Origin: Desulfobulbaceae bacterium
Lineage (GTDB): Bacteria; Desulfobacterota; Desulfobulbia; Desulfobulbales; SURF-16
Direction: 5' to 3'
DNA: 64,000 bases
Assembly: GCA_020444175.1 (NCBI GenBank)
Contig: JAHLLM010000006.1
Span: 68,204 to 132,203, forward strand
Shown here: piece by piece, positions 5,934 through 37,078 of the stretch
Position numbering within the stretch: the stretch's first letter is position 1
Layout: the number at the start of each line of letters is the position of its first letter
The notes under the pieces: generated by a model
The model's database searches: none
What the model was told of the DNA's origin: nothing
The model's input: the letters and a program-made list of their open reading frames with translations, nothing else
Made by a program: the position numbers and the translations under genes

Positions 5934-6186
5934 GACCTCCCTACCCTGATCTTTTGCTTTTTCCCTCCTACCTGCAACACGAGCCCGGACAGGAATGGAG
6001 GGCTTCTCCAACAAGTGCCTTTTAAAGAACCTCATCACGAAGGATGACACTCTCCCTGGCGGGCAGGGTGTCTGCATTCATCTCCCTAACCCTCACAACG
6101 CGGTGAGGGGATCAAGGTGGACAGTCGACACCCGCGCTGTCTCTTCATCAGAAGCCCCCATACCCGGCACCCCGCCCTACTTTCTC

Positions 6187-6312
6187 CCAGGCCACAGGCC
6201 GGGGGATTGTGTATCTTTTCCCAACACCACCCTCCCCTTCCACAAAAAGCTCTTTTGCTTTGTAGGTAACGCTCAGACCATTAACTTGCCTGATAGAGCT
6301 GAAATTGATGGG
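6187..6312 (+). repeat. Dispersed repeat R1, copy b
   Basis: Second copy of the repeat at 2300-2437, same orientation, diverged. It ends about 110 bp from the 3' end of the TIKI-like gene; copy a ends about 10 bp from the 3' end of selO, so both copies lie at gene 3' ends. Confidence 0.7.
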
Positions 6313-6423
6313 AAAATTGTTCGTGAATCATTGATATTGCAAGAAGTGGTAGGACAAATAGCGCCCTGGATGATCTTTTTATCCTGAAAAGATAAAGAAG
6401 AAACAACTGTATATTTTATACGT

Positions 6424-7182
6424 TCACCAAACAATGACAAAATCAGCCACATCTTTACCGGTCATCTGCTCCGCATGGTTTACGAAACGGATTACCTGCA
6501 TGGCTGCATCAGCGCCAGCTCCGGTGGCCGTGCTTATTAACTGGGGTTCTTGCGGATCATTTTCAAAATGCTGCACGATATTACAAGTGCCATGGTCATT
6601 TTCACGTAATAATCCCCCAAGATATTGACTCTTCCCGATCACATCCTGGTGCCACTTGATTTCTTTTATTGCATGGGTTGAACCGACAAATACAAAAATC
6701 TTATCGTATCGACCTGTTTGAGAAGCTTGATGTATATTGCGATACATCGCGGGATCACGTTTTGCATTTTCATCATCCGTGTCAATGCCATGAACTGATA
6801 ATGGGTACTTTGTCTTCAATTCACCCAGGAACCGAATCATTTCTCTGTATTCTGGTGTGTCTATTATAGGTGAAGCGATTCTTTCTTTATCAGGTCTCTT
6901 CCCTCCCAGTAATTTATCTAAATCATCCTGATTTTCTTCCGGTATCTCCAAACATGCAAATACCGTCTCTCCATTTCTTAAGGCCTTCTCAACGAGAGAC
7001 ACAAATACAGTTTTGCATATTGGGCGATCATGGCTATCGCCAAGTAGAACGATTTTCCTATCACCGCACGAGAGATAAATGTCATCTGTCAGGTGATTAA
7101 TTTGCTCGGGAGTAGCAGTCAATACACTATACTTAAACTGAGGATAAGCATCCCAAGGTTCAAGATCATTCGTTCTTCCCAT
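6424..7182 (-). CDS. TIKI/ChaN-like protein, copy 1, frameshifted N-terminus
   Basis: 252 residues. Motifs GDSHDRP, CLEIPEENQDDL, GIDTD and VFVGSTHAIKEIKWHQ fit the TIKI/ChaN/TraB-type hydrolase-like superfamily. A close paralogue lies at 58654-59451. In that copy the same DNA segment encodes a signal peptide (MILYLGVVFISLCFNV). Here the equivalent reading frame (MILNLGMLILSLSIVY, from ATG at 7169) runs into TGA because one base is missing relative to the paralogue, about 47 bases after that ATG. The long frame starting at 7182 bypasses the signal peptide and would give a cytoplasmic protein with an unrelated N-terminus. It may be a fresh pseudogene, a sequencing error or a relocalised protein. 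It starts 2 bp after the DUF3088 stop, so the two are probably cotranscribed. Confidence 0.7.
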   Translation of the reverse strand: MGRTNDLEPWDAYPQFKYSVLTATPEQINHLTDDIYLSCGDRKIVLLGDSHDRPICKTVFVSLVEKALRNGETVFACLEIPEENQDDLDKLLGGKRPDKERIASPIIDTPEYREMIRFLGELKTKYPLSVHGIDTDDENAKRDPAMYRNIHQASQTGRYDKIFVFVGSTHAIKEIKWHQDVIGKSQYLGGLLRENDHGTCNIVQHFENDPQEPQLISTATGAGADAAMQVIRFVNHAEQMTGKDVADFVIVW

Positions 7183-9170: not shown

Positions 9171-9193
9171 TAATCTTGAAAAGGAGGGATACC

Positions 9194-10030
9194 ATGAAAG
9201 TTGCCAATGCCATCAATTTCTGCCAGCAATATCATAAGATAAATTCTAGGCCCAACACCGTAAAAAATTACGAATTTCTCCTTGGCAAGTTTGGGAAATT
9301 ATACAATGATAGAGAAATAGATTCCATTACAACCGAAGAAATCATCTCTTTCCTTGCAGGCATGTCCGAAGGCAGAAAACAGAACACCAAACGGAGCAGG
9401 TTTACAACCCTTTCAGCTTTCCTCAATTTAATTATCAATACGCTTCTACCTGAGATGCGGAATCCTTGTCAGTCTCCTGCTGCCAAGAATCTTTTTCGTA
9501 AACCAAAAACATATCAATGGACCATTTTTGATAAAGACACTGTGGATGAAGCAATTTTTAGAACGCTGAACGCTCGAAACAGAATTATGCTTGAACTCAT
9601 GGCAAGGGGTGGGATGAGAATAAGTGAGGTGCTTGGTCTCAAACCAGCAGATATTGATGACCAAAAACTACTGCTACATGATCCCAAAAGTGGAAGAGAG
9701 CAAGAAATCGTGTTTATTCCTAAAAAAATATGCGGGCGGCTCCTGGATTATGTCAGATACAAGGGCATTCGTGCTGATCAGAGAATATTTCCGATCACCT
9801 ACGCTGGCGCAAGAAAAATGGTGGTAAAAGTTGGAGAGATGGTGGGGATCAAGCTTCGTCCCCATGATCTTCGCCGGCATGCAGCGACTTATGCCTCAAG
9901 ATCTGGTGTACCAATTGAAATTGTCTCGAAGATAATATTGCGGCATTCTGACCTGTCGACCACTCAAAGATATCTTGGAAAGGTGTCAGACTATGAGGCA
10001 ATCAGGTGGATAGAAAATCTGTATGGTTAA
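9194..10030 (+). CDS. Tyrosine recombinase/integrase
   Basis: About 278 residues: an N-terminal SAM-like core-binding domain (NTVKNYEFLLGKFGKL) and a C-terminal catalytic domain with the full tyrosine set: Arg in ARGGMRISEVLGL, HDLRRHAATYA (H-x-x-R), the His of HSDLSTTQRYLG and the nucleophilic Tyr in the same motif. It would catalyse site-specific strand exchange without ATP. The start is ATG 9194 with AAGGAGG at 9180-9186; an upstream in-frame TTG at 9176 lies before that site. Repeat R2a is its 5' leader and a terminator follows at 10042, so it is an independent unit on the left border of the metal island. Whether it moves the island is not shown. Confidence 0.93.
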   Translation: MKVANAINFCQQYHKINSRPNTVKNYEFLLGKFGKLYNDREIDSITTEEIISFLAGMSEGRKQNTKRSRFTTLSAFLNLIINTLLPEMRNPCQSPAAKNLFRKPKTYQWTIFDKDTVDEAIFRTLNARNRIMLELMARGGMRISEVLGLKPADIDDQKLLLHDPKSGREQEIVFIPKKICGRLLDYVRYKGIRADQRIFPITYAGARKMVVKVGEMVGIKLRPHDLRRHAATYASRSGVPIEIVSKIILRHSDLSTTQRYLGKVSDYEAIRWIENLYG

Positions 10031-10176: not shown

Positions 10177-12315
10177 CTAAAATCTTAGCCTCATTCCAAT
10201 TCCGGCATCATAATCTGAATCATGATTGGCAATAAAGGAAACCTGTTTAGTCAGCATCCACTCCAGACTGTAACTCCACTCATCATCCGTATTGGCCGAC
10301 CAATGGAAAAAAAGGCGGGGGAAAAGCTGGAGTTCACTGCCAAAAGTAAGCCGCCAGTCATTCTCCGTGTCGTAGCGCACTTCGCTCTCGATATACAGGG
10401 GCAGGACATAACGAACACCTAAGGTGCCACGTGTTTCCAGCTCATCATCCTCTTTGGAAAATTCTCCGCCAGCAAAAACAGAGAGAAAACGGCTCAGATA
10501 CCTCGTGTAATAAGGTTCTGCGTCGAAATCACCCTGCCAGTCCGAATTCCACTCAAGGCCAAGCCCATTCCGGGTATTTGAAACGAGCAGTTCTCCGGCA
10601 TTCATGTGACTCATGATATCCGCCTCACCCCAGGCGAAAAAATCAGAATCAAACATCTCATCCTTACTTGCTTTTTTCGCCTCTTCCAGAGCCGGATCGA
10701 TGACGGAGCCCTCATAATGAACCACCCTGGCCATGCCGCCCATCATGTGGTAGAGAATATGGCAGTGAAAAAACCAGTCTTTCTCTTCATTGGCCAGAAA
10801 CTCAAATACCGTGGTAGCCATGGGGGGTACATCAACTGTATGCTTAAGCGGCGCGTGATCCCCCTGACCATTTAACACTCTGAAAAAATGGCCATGCAGA
10901 TGCATGGGATGACTCATCATGGTCTTGTTGACCAGCTTGAAGCGAACATTTTCTCCCTGCCGGATAAGGATCTTGTCTGCCTCAGCCAGGGTGATATTAT
11001 TAAAGGACCAGATGTAACGATCCATATTGCCGGTCAACTCCAGAACAACCTCGCGCACCGGATTTCCTTCAGGTAAACGAGTATTTACCGGTGAGCGCAG
11101 CTGGGAATAGGCAAATATCTCATACTCTTTGATTTCTTCAGCCTGGGACTCCATCTGCATGCCCTTCATGCCATGCTTCATATTATGTTCATGTTTCATA
11201 TCCTGCCCGGATCCCATCTTGTGTTGCATCGTATCGTCACCATGCATGCCAGACATGGAACCATGGTCCATCATGCCCATCATTGTATATGGATTCGGAG
11301 GGGGAATATCGGGAGCCGCCACTTTCCTGCCGGTACCAATAAAGGCGGAGCTATAACCTGAACCATCCTTGGCAGTGGCCCGAAACTCACAGGCAACATT
11401 CTCTGGAACAGTCAGCAGAAAATCATAGGTCTCAGCTATTGCTATGGGGACCTGTTTCACCCTGATCGGTTCCACATCCATGCCGTCAGCGCTTATCAGT
11501 TGCATGAAGCCTTTAGCGTATTGCAGGGTAAAATAACTGGCAGCAGCCCCATTGATCACCCTGAGCCGTATTGTTTCCCCTGGCTGAAACTGATCAATAT
11601 CAAGTGACGGCTGGCCATTCATTAAAAAAGCATCGTAAAATACATCCGAAACATCCATGGGTGGCATGCGGACAAAAGACTGTTTCAAGCGCCCGAGAAC
11701 AGCATCATTAGCAATAATACGGTTCCAACTCTGGGCAGTTCCCTTGCGAATGGAATACCATTCACTGCCGCGTTTTAATGTTCTCAAGACTTCCATCGGA
11801 TTTTCATCAGTCCAGTCGGAAAGAAGCAGTACCAGATCATGATCAGCCTGAATTTTTTTCTGCATCGGCTGGATGACAATGGATCCATACAACCCCTGTT
11901 GTTCCTGTAGATTGGTGTGGGAATGATACCAATACGTGCCGGAGTGCTTAAGCTCAAAGGTAAAGGTGTGATCTTTGCCAGGAAGAATAGGCATGGTGGT
12001 GACATAAGGAACTCCGTCATACTGGTTGGGTAGCAGGATGCCGTGCCAGTGAATCGATGTTTCTTCATCAAGGTTATTTTGTACCCTGATGATCGCCTTG
12101 TCTCCCTCGTCAAAATAGAGGGTGGGGCCGGGAATCTGGCCATTGATTGCCAGTGCCTGACGATCCTGCCCGGCAAAGTTAACTGTTTTTTGATCAATAA
12201 TGAGATTGTATTCCACAATTTTGGCTGAGCTTGTGGAGGCAAAGAAAAAAAACACAACAGCAACAAGAAGAATTTGACAGGTTGACAACGGAAAATACTT
12301 TGGCCTGATTTTCAT
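10177..12315 (-). CDS. Multicopper oxidase (CopA-type) fused to CopB-like barrel
   Basis: 712 residues with a signal peptide (LLVAVVFFFFASTSSAKI). Three cupredoxin domains carry all four copper motifs: HWHG, YWYHSHT, HPMHLHGHFF and WFFHCHILYHMM. A His/Met-rich linker (about 345-395, MMDHGSMSGMHGDDTMQHKM) resembles PcoA/CopA copper-binding repeats. After the oxidase ends (~555) comes a further ~155 residues (YYTRYLSRFLSVFAGGEF, ETRGTLGVRYVLPLYIESEV, then alternating strands ending in GIGMRLRF) that resemble the C-terminal half of outer-membrane CopB and end in the typical terminal Phe. In most bacteria CopA and CopB are separate genes. The fusion would tether the periplasmic oxidase to the outer membrane (inference). 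It is the last gene of the leftward copper cluster. Confidence 0.88.
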   Translation of the reverse strand: MKIRPKYFPLSTCQILLVAVVFFFFASTSSAKIVEYNLIIDQKTVNFAGQDRQALAINGQIPGPTLYFDEGDKAIIRVQNNLDEETSIHWHGILLPNQYDGVPYVTTMPILPGKDHTFTFELKHSGTYWYHSHTNLQEQQGLYGSIVIQPMQKKIQADHDLVLLLSDWTDENPMEVLRTLKRGSEWYSIRKGTAQSWNRIIANDAVLGRLKQSFVRMPPMDVSDVFYDAFLMNGQPSLDIDQFQPGETIRLRVINGAAASYFTLQYAKGFMQLISADGMDVEPIRVKQVPIAIAETYDFLLTVPENVACEFRATAKDGSGYSSAFIGTGRKVAAPDIPPPNPYTMMGMMDHGSMSGMHGDDTMQHKMGSGQDMKHEHNMKHGMKGMQMESQAEEIKEYEIFAYSQLRSPVNTRLPEGNPVREVVLELTGNMDRYIWSFNNITLAEADKILIRQGENVRFKLVNKTMMSHPMHLHGHFFRVLNGQGDHAPLKHTVDVPPMATTVFEFLANEEKDWFFHCHILYHMMGGMARVVHYEGSVIDPALEEAKKASKDEMFDSDFFAWGEADIMSHMNAGELLVSNTRNGLGLEWNSDWQGDFDAEPYYTRYLSRFLSVFAGGEFSKEDDELETRGTLGVRYVLPLYIESEVRYDTENDWRLTFGSELQLFPRLFFHWSANTDDEWSYSLEWMLTKQVSFIANHDSDYDAGIGMRLRF

Positions 12316-12582: not shown

Positions 12583-13125
12583 TCAAATAATTTCTTCAAT
12601 ATCAACTGCCAGGCTTTGCTTTTCAGGATGGCCTAGATATTGTTTTTCAATTATTCCTTTATTGTTAACCAGATATAAAATCGGAAAAATTACGCCTGTT
12701 CCAAATTTTTTATGCAAGGATTTATTTTGATCAATTAATAGCGGATATGAAATTTTAATTTTTTTATAAAGTGCGGCCACCTTCTTTGCAGCTATTCTTC
12801 CATGGACTATCGCTACTATAGAAAAATCTTTATCCATAAAAGTGGTCTGCAACTTTTCCATTTCCGCAAGAAAGCTGTAACAGGCAGGACATGTAGGTGA
12901 AAAAAATATCACCAGCAATGTCTTTCCTTGCAGAGATTTGCTTTGAATAAATTCCCCTTGGGCTGATATCAGTTCAAATTCTGGCATCTGGACTTTATCT
13001 GTAAGCACCTTGCTTGATGCCGGTAAATATGATGAGGAATGTTCACTCTCGTCTTTCTCACAACCAGCAAGGACCAAAAGGGTAATGCCAAGCATTATGT
13101 ACAAAACCAAAATGAATCGTTTCAT
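12583..13125 (-). CDS. TlpA/redoxin-like thioredoxin lipoprotein
   Basis: 180 residues. A lipoprotein signal with lipobox LAGC (Cys 22) precedes a redoxin domain with the CPAC active site at 79-82 (LVIFFSPTCPACYSFLAEME) and a late cis-Pro-type segment (GVIFPILYLVNNKG). TlpA-like proteins are periplasm-facing thiol reductases or oxidases that keep cytochrome or copper-binding cysteines reduced. In this copper cluster it may repair copper-damaged thiols or help metallate the oxidase (inference). It lies between the oxidase and the HD-GYP gene on the same strand, with about 270 bp to the oxidase gene, so cotranscription is uncertain. Confidence 0.85.
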   Translation of the reverse strand: MKRFILVLYIMLGITLLVLAGCEKDESEHSSSYLPASSKVLTDKVQMPEFELISAQGEFIQSKSLQGKTLLVIFFSPTCPACYSFLAEMEKLQTTFMDKDFSIVAIVHGRIAAKKVAALYKKIKISYPLLIDQNKSLHKKFGTGVIFPILYLVNNKGIIEKQYLGHPEKQSLAVDIEEII

Positions 13126-13231: not shown

Positions 13232-14311
13232 TTAGTTCATTTTTACTTGATCAAACAAAATGTCTGAAAACATATCAAGAAGTTCCGGATCAAAATGAGA
13301 GCCGGCATCTTCCTGTATAATTTTTATCGCAGCTTCTTTTTTCATAGCCTTCCTGTACGGACGATCAGTGGTCAAGGCATCAAAAACATCGGCAATGGCA
13401 ATTATCCTGGCGGCCAGGGGAATGTCATTTTTTCTAAGACCATCAGGATACCCACTGCCGTCAAACCATTCGTGGTGATGACGGACGCCTCTAATGACCT
13501 CTTCCATTTCATCCACATGTTCCAGAATATTTGCTCCGATTTCAGGGTGATTTTTCATTATCTCTTTTTCTTCAGGAGAAAAAATACCACCTTTGCGCAA
13601 TATGGCATCATCAATGCCAATCTTGCCAATGTCATGCAGAATGGCGCCTAGTCTTAAATCTTCTTTTTCTTTTGTGGATAAATTGAGAGCTTCAGCTAAT
13701 TGTAATGAATATTGGCTCACCCGTCTGGTATGTCCACCTGTATAGGGATCCCGGCTGTTGATTGCCTCGGCCAGAGCCTCAGCGGTATGGAGAAAGGCAT
13801 CGTGGAGTTTTTCATATAAAGTAGCATTTTCCAGAGCAATCGCTGCCTGGCTTCCCAGAGAACAAAAAATCTCTAATTCAACACTAGAGAATTCATGGGT
13901 ATTTCCGGATATTCCCAGCAAGCCATATGCCTCTCCTTTTATTTCAAGAGGGGCAAAAACCATGTCAGACAAAAACGGCATTTGGCGACGCTGAAACCGG
14001 AGGTCATCATATGCAAGGACTTCATTCAACGTGATAACAGCGCCCTTGTGAACAATGCAATGATCAAAAGACCTGATGTCATGAAACTCTTTTACCGGCA
14101 TCTCAACCTGATCAAAGCCTTGCGACCTATGCAGAGTCAGAATCGTTTTCGTTTCGTCAAGTAAAAGGATAAGAACCTTTTCGGCTTGCATGAGTTTTGC
14201 TGTTTTTGCCAAAACCATTTCCTCTACCTCGCCTAAATTCAAGGTTGAGTTAATCGCTTTAGACAAATCATGAAGGCTCTTTAACGAATCGATAATCTTT
14301 GCTTCATCCAC
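13232..14311 (-). CDS. GAF-HD-GYP cyclic-di-GMP phosphodiesterase
   Basis: 359 residues. An N-terminal GAF sensor (about 10-160) is joined to an HD-GYP domain with HD at 216-217 (LGAILHDIGKIG), HHEWFDGSGYPDGL at 269-282 and the metal-binding DVFDALTTDRPYRKA. HD-GYP enzymes hydrolyse cyclic di-GMP to pGpG or GMP. There are no membrane segments, so it acts in the cytosol and its GAF probably reads a soluble or redox signal. The same-strand copper neighbours suggest metal or redox stress feeds into c-di-GMP control, which is inference; it may simply be a passenger. Confidence 0.9.
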   Translation of the reverse strand: MDEAKIIDSLKSLHDLSKAINSTLNLGEVEEMVLAKTAKLMQAEKVLILLLDETKTILTLHRSQGFDQVEMPVKEFHDIRSFDHCIVHKGAVITLNEVLAYDDLRFQRRQMPFLSDMVFAPLEIKGEAYGLLGISGNTHEFSSVELEIFCSLGSQAAIALENATLYEKLHDAFLHTAEALAEAINSRDPYTGGHTRRVSQYSLQLAEALNLSTKEKEDLRLGAILHDIGKIGIDDAILRKGGIFSPEEKEIMKNHPEIGANILEHVDEMEEVIRGVRHHHEWFDGSGYPDGLRKNDIPLAARIIAIADVFDALTTDRPYRKAMKKEAAIKIIQEDAGSHFDPELLDMFSDILFDQVKMN

Positions 14312-14369: not shown

Positions 14370-14903
14370 CTATAGTTTTAGAATCTGAAAAATTGTATCA
14401 ACAGAAGGACGATCTGCAGGTCCTTCACCAACATGGCATAAACGGACAATACCCTTTGGATCAATTAATACATCGCCCCCTCGTTGGTAAATATCTCCAT
14501 TTGTTTTTTTCAGCTGATGCCCTTTTAATATTTCTTTACAATAGGCCCACCATGTCTTTGGTCCCCAAATGTCCCAAAAGGAGGCGGAGAACATGCCATA
14601 AGCCGCGTATAACTCTCTCGTCTCATCAACAAACAGTGGCCAATTAAAACTCGTTTCGTTTATATATTTGTGAGCAAAATAGCGAGACTCAAAGGTAACA
14701 ATTACAATCTTTACATTGTACTTATTGAATTCTTTTTCGTTTTCCCGCAACTGCGAAAGATGCGCACGGCAAGGCAGTCATCCAAGATGACGGAGGAAAA
14801 CCATGAGCAGCCAATTTCCTGTATAGTCTTTCAAATGATGAATATTATTTTCACTATCTGAAAGGCTAAAAGAAATTGCAGAAAGTCCGGTCATTTTTAT
14901 CAT
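14370..14903 (-). CDS. Selenocysteine peroxiredoxin-like protein (UGA at 14778-14780)
   Basis: The usual ORF here starts only at the internal ATG-like region (14750) and lacks its active site. Reading through one TGA (14778-14780) gives a complete 177-residue protein from ATG 14903, preceded by AGGAAAG. The upstream frame encodes MTGLSAISFSLSD, then NWLLMVFLRHLG, the TGA at codon 42, then LPCRAHLSQLRENEKEF. This is the peroxiredoxin-like (AhpC/TSA-related, SelL-like) active-site context F-x-R-x-x-G-U-x-x-C, with Sec at the first position of a CxxC-type motif and Cys at codon 45. The downstream part (VKIVIVTFES, WPLFVDETRELYAAYG, GGDVLIDPKGIVRLCHVG) is typical of the family. A possible SECIS-like hairpin (CCG-TGCG/CGCA-CGG) begins 9 nt after the TGA. 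Likely role: thiol or peroxide reduction during copper stress. Confidence 0.82.
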
Positions 14904-14928
14904 ATTACTCTTTCCTGTATCAATATAA

Positions 14929-15564
14929 TCATTTTTTCAATCGTGGAAGAAAGGCCGGAACTTTAAGAACATAGGAATTGTAAGCTTCACCAAACTCCTT
15001 TCTCACCAGAGACTCTTCCTGTTTTGCCAGACGGATATAGACAACCAGCAGAATCGGAAACATTATCAAGGTGAGCAGTGTAGGCCACATCAGCAGAAAA
15101 CCAAACATGATTAAAACAAAACCGTCATACTGTGGATGTCTCACCCTTCCATATATCCCGGTGTTAGCAAGTTCCCCTTTTTGCTGAGCAGCATGGAGAA
15201 CCACCCACCCTCTGTAAATGATATAGAACCCGGCAATGATGAACAGATTCGCAATCAGGTGAATAGGGTTACTGTGGGGATCACCTTCAAATCCAAAAAT
15301 TGTATACCAAAGGTGACCGCTGCCGTGGGCAAAGATATCTGTCTGGGGAAATTTGGCCTGCAGCCAACCGGAAAGAAAATAGATGGTCAGCGGGAAGCCG
15401 TACATTTCGACGAACAGGGCCACAATAAAGGCGGAAAAAACACCTAGGCTCCGCCAGTCAAGGCTGGTTTTCGGTTTAATGAAACTGAAGGCAAAAAAGA
15501 TAAATATTGCTGAATTCATTATAACAATAGGCCATAAGCCATATGCAGGAATTGTTTCATTCAT
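14929..15564 (-). CDS. Isoprenylcysteine methyltransferase-like (ICMT/PEMT) membrane protein
   Basis: 211 residues with four to five hydrophobic helices. The C-terminal signature GIYGRVRHPQYDGFVLIMFGF, followed by RLAKQEESLVRKEFGEAYNSY, is the SAM/lipid-binding core of the ICMT/PEMT/NnrU-like family. Members methylate membrane-associated substrates, but the substrate of the bacterial copper-island versions is not known. The ATG overlaps the stop of the DUF2933 gene (ATGA), so the two are translationally coupled, and it is followed after 25 bp by the selenoprotein gene. This pair is often met in copper-resistance clusters, as I recall the family context. Confidence 0.82.
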   Translation of the reverse strand: MNETIPAYGLWPIVIMNSAIFIFFAFSFIKPKTSLDWRSLGVFSAFIVALFVEMYGFPLTIYFLSGWLQAKFPQTDIFAHGSGHLWYTIFGFEGDPHSNPIHLIANLFIIAGFYIIYRGWVVLHAAQQKGELANTGIYGRVRHPQYDGFVLIMFGFLLMWPTLLTLIMFPILLVVYIRLAKQEESLVRKEFGEAYNSYVLKVPAFLPRLKK

Positions 15565-15896: not shown

Positions 15897-16388
15897 TTAT
15901 TTTTCCATCATCATTTCCTGCTGGCTCATCATGCCGCGCATCATTTCCATCATCATTTTCATCTTACCCTCCATCATCTGCATTCGGTTGTCATCTTGAC
16001 CTCCCATCATCATCCCCTTGCCGCCCATCATGCCGCCCTTGCTTTTCATGTTCTCCATCATGGGCATTTGGTCGGACTTCGACATTTTGGATGAATCCAT
16101 GTCGCCCATCATCATTCCCTTTCCCCCCATCATTCCCATCATTTTCATGCCATCTTTCATCTGCTGCATATGCTGATGCATGAGGGCTTTCTGTTCTGTC
16201 GGGCTTTGTGCTGCCTCCATTTTCTGGCGGGACTCTTCCATCTTCATGATGGTAGAGTCTGTTTGGTCCTGAGTCACTTCAATCGTTTGTTGATCTGCAG
16301 ATTCAGGATGATGCGCCTGGTCTGCCCAAGCCGGAAGAGCTGTAGCTATAACTAATATTAAGGTTGAAGCTAAAATAATTTTTTTCAT
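15897..16388 (-). CDS. Methionine-rich periplasmic copper-binding-like protein
   Basis: 163 residues from ATG 16388, chosen because AGGAGG lies nine bases before it. A signal peptide (MKKIILASTLILVIATALPAWA) is followed by a helical segment and a tail dominated by MMGGKGMMMG and MMEMMRGMMSQQEMMM motifs, about one quarter Met. Such clusters bind Cu(I) through thioether sulfur. It sits just downstream of copA on the same strand. A second, independent Met/Gly-rich protein is at 39145-39630. No catalytic domain is visible; sponge or chaperone for Cu(I) is the likely role. Confidence 0.75.
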   Translation of the reverse strand: MKKIILASTLILVIATALPAWADQAHHPESADQQTIEVTQDQTDSTIMKMEESRQKMEAAQSPTEQKALMHQHMQQMKDGMKMMGMMGGKGMMMGDMDSSKMSKSDQMPMMENMKSKGGMMGGKGMMMGGQDDNRMQMMEGKMKMMMEMMRGMMSQQEMMMEK

Positions 16389-16453
16389 TTGAGTCCCTCC
16401 TGAGAACATGATTTAAAAAGAGGATCAACCACCATGGTTGTCCTCCTGTGCAA

Positions 16454-18976
16454 TTACTTGATCTTTACGGTCTTGAGCCGCAGGGCATTCCCTACAACCG
16501 AAACAGAACTTAAGCTCATGGCTGCTGCAGCAATCATCGGGCTGAGCATAATCCCTAAAGCCGGATACAAAACACCTGCTGCTACTGGAACCCCAAGGGA
16601 GTTATAGATAAAGGCAAAGAACAGATTCTGCTTGATATTTGTCATGGTGGCTCGAGACAGCTTCCTTGCCCGTACAATACCTGTAAGATCGCCTTTCACC
16701 AGGGTCACACCCGCACTTTCCATGGCCACATCGGTGCCGGTTCCCATGGCAATACCAACATGGGCCTGGGCAAGTGCCGGGGCATCATTAATGCCATCAC
16801 CAGCCATGGCGACCATCTTGCCCTCGTCCTGGAACCTTTTTACGACAGCAGCCTTTTCATCAGGAAGGACTTCTGCCACTACCTCGTCAATATCAAGTTT
16901 TGCCGCCACCGCCTTAGCTGTTGCCCAGTTGTCACCGGTCAGCATCACGACTCTCAACCCTTCATCATGTAACTGTTTTATGGCTGCCGGGGTTGATTCC
17001 TTAATGGGATCGGAAACAGCCAGGATACCGGCCAATTTCCCGTCAACTGCAACAAACATGACGGTCTGGCCTTCTTTGCGCATTTCTTCAGCACGATTGG
17101 CTAATTCGTCAGTGTTGACACCAGCGTCATCCATCAACTTAATATTACCAAGAAGAACACGCGCTCCCTCAACTGTACCTGCGACACCTTTACCGGTAAC
17201 GGAGTCAAATTCTTCAGGCGTTACAGTGGTGATCTCTTTTTCAGCCGCTCCGGATACAATTGCTGCGGCCAGAGGATGCTCACTTGATTTTTCAAGACTT
17301 GCAGCAAAGCTGAGAACTTTATTGTCATCCATACCTGATGCGGTTATCAGATCAGTGAGTTTCGGCTTACCCAATGTCAGGGTCCCGGTCTTGTCAACCA
17401 CAAGGGTGTCAATCTTACGCATGGTCTCAATTGCCTCGGCATTTTTAAACAGCACGCCCATTGTGGCCCCTTTCCCGGTAGACACCATGATGGACATGGG
17501 TGTAGCCAGACCAAGGGCACATGGACAGGCAATAATCAGAACAGACACTGCGGCAATAAGAGCATAGGCCAGGCGTGGATCAGGTCCAAAGAAATACCAG
17601 ACACCAAAGGCCAGCAATGCGATCGCTATAACCACCGGCACAAAATAACCAGCCACAAGATCTGCCAGTTTCTGGATGGGAGCCCGACTGCGCTGGGCAT
17701 CAGCAACCATCTGAACTATCTGAGCCAGCAATGTATCACGGCCAACTTTCTCAGCCCGCATTGTTAGAGAACCGGTACCGTTGACAGTAGCGCCAATAAC
17801 TTTATCCCCAGCCTGCTTTTTGACGGGAACCGGCTCACCGGAAATCATGGACTCATCCACCGAGCTCGATCCATCAGTGACTTCCCCATCCACCGGAACC
17901 TTTTCTCCAGGTCTTATACGTAATACGTCTCCTGTCTGGACATGCTCCAGGGGAATATCAATTTCCGAACCGTCAGTATCAATTTTTCTGGCCGTTTTAG
18001 GTGCCAGGCCAAGTAATGCCTTAATGGCTGCACCTGTCTGACTACGTGCCCGCAACTCCATGACCTGCCCTAAAAGGATGAGGGTGACAATAACGGCTGC
18101 CGCTTCAAAATAAACTCCCACGGCTCCATCAGGCCCCCGCATGGTGTCCGGAAAAATATCAGGTAATAACACCGCGATAAGACTGTAAATATAGGCCACA
18201 GAAACGCCCAGACCTATAAGGGTAAACATATTGAGGCTTTTATTGATGACAGACTGTATGCCGCGAACATAGAAAGGCCAGCCGGCCCAGAGAACCACCG
18301 GTGTGGCCAGTAAAAGTTCCAGCCAACCCAACGTTCTGGCGGAAGCCATCTCAGAAATAAAGTGCCCGCCGGGAAGCATCTCGCGCATGGCAATAAAAAC
18401 CACTGGCAAGGTAAGGATTGCCCCAAAGACGAAACGTTTCCACATGTAGTTGTATTCAGGGTTTTCTTCCTCAGAATCAAGGGTAATTGTGCGTGCCTCC
18501 AGGGCCATTCCACATTTCGGGCAGCTGCCTGGTACATCCTGTACTATTTCCGGATGCATGGGGCATGTGTACTCCGTGCTCTCTGTCAACTGTGCAGGAC
18601 TTAATGGCTCAAGTCCCATCCCGCACTTGGGGCAGGTTCCAGGTCCTTCCTGTACAACTTCCGGGTGCATGGGGCATGTATAGGTCCGGGATTTTAAAGA
18701 AGGCTTCACCTCTTTGGCTGCACTGCGGTCTGCATGTGTTCCGGAAGTGCCATGGCAGCAACTTTTCGATTCTCCTGCTCCATAATCTCCAGGGTTTTCT
18801 TTAAATTTTGCCAGACAATGATCACTGCAGAAATAATACGTTGTGCCTTTATATTCGTAACCGCTAAAGGCAGACTCATCTTCCGTGCTCATGCCGCACA
18901 CAGGATCAACAAAGTTTTTTGTTTCACCATGTTTCTGGCTGTGCTCATGGTGATGATTATTGGTTGTATTTGTCAT
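16454..18976 (-). CDS. copA: Cu(I)-translocating P1B-type ATPase
   Basis: About 840 residues. The N-terminus has a His-rich stretch, a YHS domain ([18 protein letters not shown]) and two YTCPMHPE-x-CPKCGM heavy-metal-binding domains instead of classical CxxC HMA domains. The core has the actuator loop [11 protein letters not shown], the CPC metal site ([11 protein letters not shown]), the phosphorylation motif DKTGTLT, the SEHPLA nucleotide site and [11 protein letters not shown]. The C-terminal [15 protein letters not shown] and the YN in the penultimate helix fit the P1B-1 (Cu+/Ag+) group. It exports cytosolic Cu(I). The start is ATG 18976 with GGAGG eight bases upstream; an earlier in-frame GTG overlaps that site. 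Third gene from the MerR-type promoter. Confidence 0.95.
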
Positions 18977-19031
18977 GATGCCCACCTCCGTGTCGATAAA
19001 CGACCTGGTTACTTTCCCTTCCTCACATCAC

Positions 19032-19358
19032 TCAAAACCGCACATACTTATTAGGGTCGAGATCAAATAATTTCCTGCAGTGCTCAGAACAGAACCGGAA
19101 GGTCTTGCCATGAAACTCACTGCCTGTGGAAGCGCTGGTGACATTCATCCCGCAAACCGGGTCTTTTTCATTATCATGGCTAGTCATTTGTGCATGATGA
19201 TCCGTGGGAGGAAGAGACGTATCGTGTTGCCCTCCATGGCCGGAGTGATCATTATGCCCATCATGGCTATGGCCACCACAACATCCCCCTCCTTTTTTCA
19301 TCATCATATAAACAACCAGACCAAATACTATTATCCAGAAAAGATTTACCAGTGTCAT
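19032..19358 (-). CDS. YHS-domain small membrane protein
   Basis: 108 residues: one N-terminal transmembrane helix (LVNLFWIIVFGLVVYMMM), a His/Gly/Cys-rich linker (GGGCCGGHSHDGHNDHSGHGG) and a C-terminal YHS domain (DPVCGMNV, FRFCSEHCRKLFDLDPNKY). YHS domains bind metal through the DPVCGM and CxxxC cysteines. Its ATG overlaps the merR stop by 4 bp and copA follows 55 bp later, so it is probably a membrane-anchored copper donor or sensor for CopA (inference). Confidence 0.85.
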   Translation of the reverse strand: MTLVNLFWIIVFGLVVYMMMKKGGGCCGGHSHDGHNDHSGHGGQHDTSLPPTDHHAQMTSHDNEKDPVCGMNVTSASTGSEFHGKTFRFCSEHCRKLFDLDPNKYVRF

Positions 19359-19792
19359 GATCCACCTCCATTATGGTGATGATGTTCTTCCTCAGGGCCA
19401 CTCAGTGCTTCGAGGATAGGACAGGCACTCGCCGGCCCATGACCGTCACATCCTTTTGAAAGTTGCTCAAGTGCCTTGAGGATTCTTGTCAGATCCTTGA
19501 TCCTGCAACGCACATCCCTGATCTTGGCCTCTGTTCGCTCTTTTACGTCAGATTTGGATGCGTCAGGATCATGTTGAATGAAGAGCAGCTCTTTAATTTC
19601 GCTTAAGGAAAACCCAAGATCTTTCGCTTTTTTAATAAAAATCAACCGGGCAACATCTTCTTCAGGATACATGCGATAGTTTGATTGGGTACGTGCAGGC
19701 TCATTAATAAGTCCTCGTCTTTCATAAAATCGAACAGTATCTATTGTCAGTCCTGCTTTTTTAGCCAGCTTGCCTATTGTTAGTCCGTGCAT
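19355..19792 (-). CDS. MerR-family copper/heavy-metal regulator
   Basis: 145 residues. The N-terminal winged helix (LTIGKLAKKAGLTIDTVRFYERRGLI) is MerR-type; a dimerisation helix follows, then the metal-binding loop with two cysteines (GCDGHGPASACPIL), eight residues apart, and a His-rich tail (EEEHHHHN). The Cys spacing is compatible with CueR/ZntR/MerR relatives, and the copper genes downstream favour a Cu(I) sensor. It is the first gene of the leftward cluster and is read from the 19-bp-spaced promoter at 19835-19865, which it probably controls by DNA distortion. Confidence 0.9.
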   Translation of the reverse strand: MHGLTIGKLAKKAGLTIDTVRFYERRGLINEPARTQSNYRMYPEEDVARLIFIKKAKDLGFSLSEIKELLFIQHDPDASKSDVKERTEAKIRDVRCRIKDLTRILKALEQLSKGCDGHGPASACPILEALSGPEEEHHHHNGGGS

Positions 19793-34909: not shown

Positions 34910-37078
34910 ATGTCTCGAAGAATTGATTATAAAGTTCAAGGACTAGATTGCTCGGAAGAGGTAATCATTCTCCGCCGCGAGGTCGGAGGGAAACCTGGAA
35001 TCATCGATCTCGAATTTGATGTTATCAATGCCAGGATGACGGTGGAGTTCGAGTCTGATGTACTATCCTCTGACGAGATTGTCCAGGCGGTTCGCGCAGC
35101 AGGTATGGAGGCAACGCCTTGGGAGCTGCGAAAAACCCGTGAGCAGGAATCCTTTTGGAATCGATACGGTAGGTTGATCATGACGGTTATGAGCGGAGCG
35201 CTTCTTCTGACCGCGTTCGGCACCCATTGGGTGTTGCACGGCAGCCTGACAGATGCTTTTGCCGGTGGCCAGAACGAGCAACACATTTTCCCACGATCCG
35301 TGATGTTGCTCTATTTTTTCGCCGCTGTAGCCGGTGCCTGGTACGTCGTACCCAAGGCTTTTCAGTCTGCTAGGCGTCTCCGGCCGGACATGAATTTCTT
35401 GATGGTCGCCGCTGTCATCGGGGCGTTTATCCTCGGCGAGTGGTTTGAGGCGGCCACGGTCGCGTTTCTGTTTGCTCTTTCGTTGTTGCTGGAGCAATGG
35501 AGCGTCGAGCGCGCGCGGAATGCCATTGGTGCGCTTTTGAATCTGGCACCGACCACAGCCCGCTATCGTTTCCCGGACCACAGCGATATCCATGAAAAGC
35601 CCGTGGTGGATATCCCCCTTGGCGCCATCGTCCTGGTCCGCCCGGGTGAGAGGGTTGCGCTGGACGGAGAGGTGGTCAAGGGTGAATCCTCGGTGAACCA
35701 GGCCCCGATCACCGGTGAATCGATGCCGGTCGCCAAACGCCCAGGCGATCAAGTCTATGCCGGCACCATCAATCAGGATGGCGTTCTGGAGTTTCGTGCT
35801 AATCGGATGGCCGGCGATACTACCTTGGCGCGGATTATTGCGATGGTTGAAAGCGCCCAGTCGCGGCGTGCCAGCAGTCAACAATGGGTTGAACGCTTCT
35901 CGGCCTACTACACCCCGGCCATGATGTTCCTGGCGCTTGGTATCGCGGCCCTGTTGCCGATATTGACAGGTATCTCATGGGCAGAGGGAGTTTACCGCGG
36001 CCTGGTGATTCTGGTCATCGCCTGCCCCTGCGCCCTGGTGATCTCCACGCCGGTGAGCATTGTCTCGGCTCTGACAGCTGCGGCTCGTAACGGGGTGCTG
36101 ATCAAGGGCGGCCTTTACCTTGAGTCGGCAGGACGCCTTCGAGTCCTCGCGCTTGATAAAACCGGGACTCTCACCAAAGGTCGGCCTGAGGTGCGACGCC
36201 TGGTGCCCCTCGACGGCCACAGCGAACGGGAGCTTCTGGAGCGAGCTGCAGCACTGGAAGCCGACAGTGAACATCCTCTGGCCAGGGCGATTCTGCGCAA
36301 GGCGCGTGAATCCGAGATTGATGTTGTTCCGACCGAGCAATTTATAGCGGTTCCTGGCAAGGGCGCGGAGGGGCGTATCGCTGGCAGGTTATTCTGGATC
36401 GGCAGCCACCGGATGATGCACGAAAAAGCTCAGGAGACTCCGGAAATACATGCCTGGGCGAAAGAGTTGGAGGATGCTGGCCACTCCGTTGTCGCAATCG
36501 GCAACGAGAGCCATGTCTGTGGGCTGATCAGTATTGCGGATAGCCTGCGCGAGGGCGTTCCGCAAATTATCGCAGATATCAAGCAGGCTGGCGTGAAGCG
36601 GATTGTGATGCTCACCGGTGACAATGAAGGGACCGCCAGGACTATTGCAGCTGAGGCTGGAATCGATGAATACCGCTGTGAACTTCTGCCCGAGGATAAG
36701 GTCGAAGCAATCGGACGGCTTGTCCGCGAGGACAAGTTCGTGGCCATGGTTGGCGACGGTATAAACGATGCCCCGGCGATGGCAGCAGCGACCTTCGGGA
36801 TTGCGATGGGGGCGATGGGGACAGATGCCGCCCTGGAAACGGCAGATATGGCCTTGATGTCCGACGATCTGTCAAAACTACCCTGGCTGATCCGTCACTC
36901 CCGGCGGACCTTACGGAATATCCAGCAGAACATCAGCTTCGCCCTGGGGCTCAAATTAGTGTTTATCGTTTTAACCCTGTTCGGCATGTCTTCGCTCTGG
37001 ATGGCCATCGCCGCCGATACCGGAGCAACGTTATTGGTGGTATTTAACGGCTTGCGGCTTCTAAACGATCTCCCCTGA
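34910..37078 (+). CDS. Zn/Cd/Pb-type P1B ATPase (ZntA/CadA-like)
   Basis: 722 residues. The N-terminal HMA-like domain has GLDCSEEV in place of the GMxCxxC site, so only one Cys with adjacent acidic residues. The core has VNQAPITGESMPV, ACPCALVISTPVSIV, ALDKTGTLTKG, SEHPLA and GDGINDAPA, and the C-terminal AADTGATLLVVFNGLRLL carries the Asp-Gly pair of P1B-2 Zn(II)/Cd(II)/Pb(II) pumps. It exports divalent metal from the cytosol. By eye the coding sequence is distinctly more GC-rich (many GCC, CGC, GGC codons) than its neighbours, suggesting separate acquisition. The start ATG has AGGAG seven bases upstream. Confidence 0.92.
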   Translation: MSRRIDYKVQGLDCSEEVIILRREVGGKPGIIDLEFDVINARMTVEFESDVLSSDEIVQAVRAAGMEATPWELRKTREQESFWNRYGRLIMTVMSGALLLTAFGTHWVLHGSLTDAFAGGQNEQHIFPRSVMLLYFFAAVAGAWYVVPKAFQSARRLRPDMNFLMVAAVIGAFILGEWFEAATVAFLFALSLLLEQWSVERARNAIGALLNLAPTTARYRFPDHSDIHEKPVVDIPLGAIVLVRPGERVALDGEVVKGESSVNQAPITGESMPVAKRPGDQVYAGTINQDGVLEFRANRMAGDTTLARIIAMVESAQSRRASSQQWVERFSAYYTPAMMFLALGIAALLPILTGISWAEGVYRGLVILVIACPCALVISTPVSIVSALTAAARNGVLIKGGLYLESAGRLRVLALDKTGTLTKGRPEVRRLVPLDGHSERELLERAAALEADSEHPLARAILRKARESEIDVVPTEQFIAVPGKGAEGRIAGRLFWIGSHRMMHEKAQETPEIHAWAKELEDAGHSVVAIGNESHVCGLISIADSLREGVPQIIADIKQAGVKRIVMLTGDNEGTARTIAAEAGIDEYRCELLPEDKVEAIGRLVREDKFVAMVGDGINDAPAMAAATFGIAMGAMGTDAALETADMALMSDDLSKLPWLIRHSRRTLRNIQQNISFALGLKLVFIVLTLFGMSSLWMAIAADTGATLLVVFNGLRLLNDLP

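Follow-up and report, generated by a model that had tools for sequence, protein, structure and literature searches.

Peroxiredoxin-like proteins that carry selenocysteine (Sec) are an established group in bacteria. Sec-containing "Prx-like thiol:disulfide oxidoreductases" were catalogued in 2006 from Desulfotalea, Geobacter, Syntrophus, and other Deltaproteobacteria (PMC1794560), and proteins of this type with UxxC or UxxU motifs are listed in current catalogues (PMC9312934, PMC13188914). Prx-like UxxC proteins also occur commonly in metagenomes from the ocean (PMC1088965, PMC2398784). Another Prx-like selenoprotein is selenoprotein L (SelL), which is found in aquatic animals and other organisms (PMC2398784); SelL proper contains two Sec residues (PMC3473315). 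In this study, we analyzed a 64,000-nucleotide stretch of DNA (the window) from a Desulfobulbaceae bacterium and found a gene whose product is a selenoprotein of the kind already known in Deltaproteobacteria, and a well-supported further member of it. That the gene encodes a selenoprotein we regard as nearly certain.

A selenoprotein gene shortened by the standard ORF call

The gene lies at 14370..14903 on the minus strand and runs from an ATG at 14903-14901 to a TAG stop at 14372-14370. Translated with TGA as U, it encodes a Sec-containing peroxiredoxin-like, SelL-related redox protein of 177 amino acids. The single internal stop in this frame is the TGA at 14780-14778, which is codon 42 and falls within the translation FLRHLGULPCR; the TGA/Cys pattern at the homologous column marks it as the Sec residue of the U-L-P-C motif. 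A Shine-Dalgarno-like AGGAAAG (14910..14916, minus strand), recognized by sequence, lies 6 nt before the ATG, and similar purine-rich stretches precede the starts of most homologues. The sequence-only reading had described a good start with a ribosome-binding site at 14903 and had stated that conventional ORF calling gives only the C-terminal 126 residues, and both descriptions are correct: the standard ORF list contains only a TTG-started piece at 14370-14750, so that a selenoprotein gene is reduced to its C-terminal two thirds. The segment upstream of the TGA has conserved sequence of its own, with F36, R38, H39, and G41 invariant among the homologues. The protein is probably cytosolic, as no signal peptide was seen by inspection.

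Once the TGA is read through, residues 9-174 of the protein match the NCBIfam family NF040769 ("SelL-related redox protein") with 199.2 bits against a cut-off of 120. This is a full-length match, and nothing sets the Sec protein apart from NF040769. In Pfam, the read-through protein matches PF00578 with 68.8 bits (cut-off 26) and PF13911 with 58.5 bits. An AlphaFold2 model built from 15 homologues (pLDDT 86, pTM 0.82) places residue 42 directly before the active-site helix 43-54, and its top fold matches in the PDB are Bcp/peroxiredoxins and human prostamide/PGF synthase (TM 0.77/0.83). PRXL2B/prostamide-PGF synthase and other AhpC-TSA_2 (PF13911) proteins share the fold, the CxxC register, and the PF13911 match. 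PGF synthase, for which the structure of a C44S/C47S mutant has been deposited, differs in having Cys where Sec42 stands here and is only ~20% identical, and its prostaglandin substrate is not expected in a bacterium. Residues 34-175 of the query fall on residues 36-180 of the PGF synthase chain, and U42 and C45 would be in register with C44 and C47 provided that the start of this match is gapless. Compared by domain and motif, the protein shares PF00578 and UxxC with the Prx-like thiol:disulfide oxidoreductases typified by WP_010940744.1. The TxxU motif of Sec peroxiredoxin is absent, R-H-L-G being the residues that precede U42. The SelL motif is UxxU. Unlike SelL proper, the protein described here has one Sec in a U-L-P-C motif, and ULPC occurs in all close homologues; it is thus related to SelL and is not a SelL itself.

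Conservation of the TGA and of a downstream hairpin

Genome and contig searches yielded a close set of 20 loci in 19 genomes (that of the window included) of several families, 52-73% identical to the query; two of these loci, L063 and L070, lie on one contig. TGA stands at column 42 in all close loci and a sense codon in none. Among more distant relatives (~20% identical by BLAST), seven have TGA at this column, with the motifs UMFA, UIFA, UVFA, UMFS, and ULFC, and seven others (L075, L078, and L082-L086) have TGT or TGC, with the motifs CPIC, CPLC, CPVC, and CSVC. Within the phylum, most distant homologues, with UMFA, ULFC, and CPIC motifs, score below the NF040769 cut-off. C or U had been predicted at column 42, and the homologues bear this out; the exchange of Sec and Cys at a single column is a classical mark of selenoproteins and supports Sec at position 42. 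Comparison of the homologues with the query gave pN of 0.16-0.45 and pS of 0.36-1.0 before the TGA, and pN of 0.14-0.28 and pS of 0.58-0.97 after it. Substitutions are thus mostly synonymous, and these ratios point to purifying selection before as well as after the TGA. The possibility that the TGA simply truncates the protein in all relatives does not fit a conserved TGA column with constrained flanks. Searches of plasmid collections returned only haloarchaeal redoxins of 22% identity, and those of viral collections returned no homologue.

Several loci at the edge of this family differ from the rest. Six distant loci (L076, L077, L079, L080, L081, and L087) form a Sec branch whose UxFA/UMFS motifs lack the second Cys, so that its mechanism would have to differ; the genome that carries L080 (G124) gave no selA match. 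At another locus (L092 in genome G056, 6004-6494), the homologue of the Sec gene is split by a frameshift, through either decay or an assembly error, and a short fragment of a copper ATPase lies ~2 kb away.

Bacterial SECIS elements lie shortly after the TGA and have a G among the first two bases of the loop. A SECIS-like hairpin, UUUCGC-AGUU-GCGGGA, is located at 14743..14758 on the minus strand (nt 23-38 from the T of the TGA). It starts 22 nt after that T and has six pairs and the apical loop AGUU with G in the second position. In an alignment of 19 distinct sequences from the close Sec members, 99.1% of cells are paired, compared with 33-61% in slid controls. Compensatory changes occur in three of the six pairs (for example, UCACGC/GCGUGA, UCUCGC/GCGGGA, and UUCUGC/GCAGAA), and none of 500 shuffles reached the covariation score. 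The hairpin that had been looked for downstream of the TGA is therefore conserved and covarying, and from its position, loop, and covariation we read it as a bacterial-type SECIS. Cys homologues have no such hairpin at the equivalent place. The case for a SECIS is one of comparison, because folding the window's own hairpin by itself gives an unremarkable result: the region is no more stable than its shuffles (z of +0.6 to +1.3), and two of the six pairs in its stem are G-U. A scan of the window at Rfam gathering thresholds gave no match. An outer second helix at columns 41-52 was considered and dropped as unsupported, with 49% of cells paired.

The genome of the host (5.4 Mb, completeness 100%) encodes selA (contig C28, 622 bits), selB (C49, 368 bits), selD (C79, 379 bits), and selC, a tRNA-Sec with anticodon TCA (UCA) (C44, 67 bits). 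The absence of selABCD, which would have spoken against Sec, is thus not what we find. The gene selA is present in all 21 genome entries with the Sec gene; this co-occurrence is weakly informative because ~90% of the phylum (355 of 395 genomes) has selA. The selD gene of the host (C79:89271-90194, L026) contains one in-frame TGA, and SelD of this bacterium is probably itself a selenoprotein.

An isolated in-frame TGA in a gene with a truncated ORF call looks the same as an ordinary nonsense mutation or a sequencing error in a decaying or misassembled gene. That explanation does not account for the recurrence of this TGA in one column across 19 genomes from several families, for the purifying selection on either side of it, or for the covarying hairpin; conservation of the TGA in independent assemblies refutes it, and we give it practically no weight. 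Scarcely more credible is the idea that the TGA is read as an amino acid other than Sec, through reassignment to Trp or Cys or through leaky suppression. The frame would be open under any reassignment of TGA, and distant homologues do have Cys at the column, but TGA serves as a normal stop elsewhere, as in the methyltransferase gene 25 nt upstream (14931-14929), and the complete selABCD set and the SECIS-like element favor Sec, for which exchange with Cys is the expected pattern. The proposal from the sequence alone of a selenoprotein with an in-frame UGA is thus upheld by the 177-residue frame, the NF040769 match, the conserved TGA, the hairpin, and selABCD.

Copper genes around the Sec gene

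In the window, the Sec gene lies among genes for copper handling and redox proteins. Immediately upstream (25 nt) is a membrane isoprenylcysteine-type methyltransferase (PEMT/ICMT) identified by Pfam at 14929..15564 on the minus strand, which ends in an ordinary TGA stop. Farther upstream lie a Met-rich protein (15897-16409, by inspection), a copper-translocating P1B-type ATPase (CopA) at 16454..18985 on the minus strand (TIGR01511, 617 bits against a cut-off of 397), a small YHS-like protein (19032-19358, by inspection, with no NCBIfam hit), and, at 19355..19792 on the minus strand, a MerR/CueR-like, MerR-family metal-responsive regulator that scores below every equivalog cut-off. Downstream by 58 nt is a GAF-HD domain protein (13232..14311, minus strand, Pfam), homologues of which lie near the Sec gene at L061, L062/L102, and L066. 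It is followed on the same strand by a thioredoxin-like/redoxin protein with a CPAC motif and no Sec (12583..13125, by domain match and ORF list) and by a multicopper oxidase of the copper-resistance type (10177..12315, Pfam; TIGR01480, 426 bits, just under the cut-off of 479). A recombinase-like ORF was noted by inspection at 9176-10030. The window also contains a second heavy-metal P-type ATPase at 35348-37060, whose 391 bits to the copper model are just under the cut-off of 397. Relatives of the PEMT/ICMT protein are adjacent to the Sec gene in L090 (80% identical) and ~2.3 kb from it in L088 (78% identical). The Sec proteins at these two loci are only 59-63% identical to that of the window, which suggests that the methyltransferase is under stronger constraint or has a different transfer history.

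In 6 of 20 genomes (G000, G016, G039, G054, L060, and L065), the Sec gene has a copper-type P-ATPase gene no more than about 2.1 kb away. Given how many such ATPases each genome has, the expected number is about 0.14, an estimate that ignores kinship and joint transfer. With the window, which prompted the question, left out, 5 of 19 genomes have a nearby copper ATPase. The arrangement varies: the ATPase is upstream in G000 and G016, downstream in G054 and L065, and on the opposite strand in G039. In two other genomes (G006 and G038), the Sec gene and a copper ATPase share a contig at a distance of 21-37 kb. The link between selenium use and copper detoxification that had been drawn from the window alone therefore survives as a recurrent gene neighborhood and does not as a statement of function. 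The association is more than anecdotal, and, judged from the neighborhood, a role for the Sec protein in copper stress is plausible. The selenoprotein could nevertheless be real and its copper setting incidental, the gene being a general redox gene in a patchy metal-resistance region. No close copper ATPase is present in 14 of the 20 genomes with the Sec gene (many contigs are short), and the recombinase-like ORF, together with further metal genes, suggests that the region is mobile or patchy; the excess of close associations, subject to the same neglect of kinship and joint transfer, and their differing orders and orientations argue the other way. We give this incidental setting a substantial chance of being correct, somewhat short of even.

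Proposed function and significance

Taken as a whole, we consider it very probable that the gene encodes a peroxiredoxin-fold selenoprotein with UGA 42 as Sec, an oxidoreductase whose likeliest setting is copper stress. UGA 42 would be decoded as Sec by SelB and tRNA-Sec(UCA), directed by the downstream hairpin. Sec42, at the N terminus of the active-site helix, would pair with Cys45 (U-x-x-C) as a selenenyl-sulfide. By family and modeled fold, the protein is likely a UxxC thiol/selenol oxidoreductase that would most likely reduce disulfides or peroxides and may be recycled by thioredoxin or the like. The gene neighborhood suggests the repair of oxidative or thiol damage under copper stress as the likeliest setting. 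We also offer, as a speculation that we think unlikely to be right, the idea that the SelL-related branch has turned into a working part of copper-resistance clusters in which the selenol protects or regenerates copper-sensitive thiols. If this is true, these anaerobes would need a supply of selenium to tolerate copper.

A metal connection has precedents, in that several selenoproteins linked to heavy metals have been described (PMC13188914). An association of the ULPC branch with copper clusters was not found in a limited search of the literature, and the recurrent neighborhood of a copper-export pump is the mildly new part of our findings. The ULPC branch of SelL-related proteins now has a covarying SECIS, and the copper-ATPase neighborhood points to a concrete physiological setting in which the role of this family can be tested.
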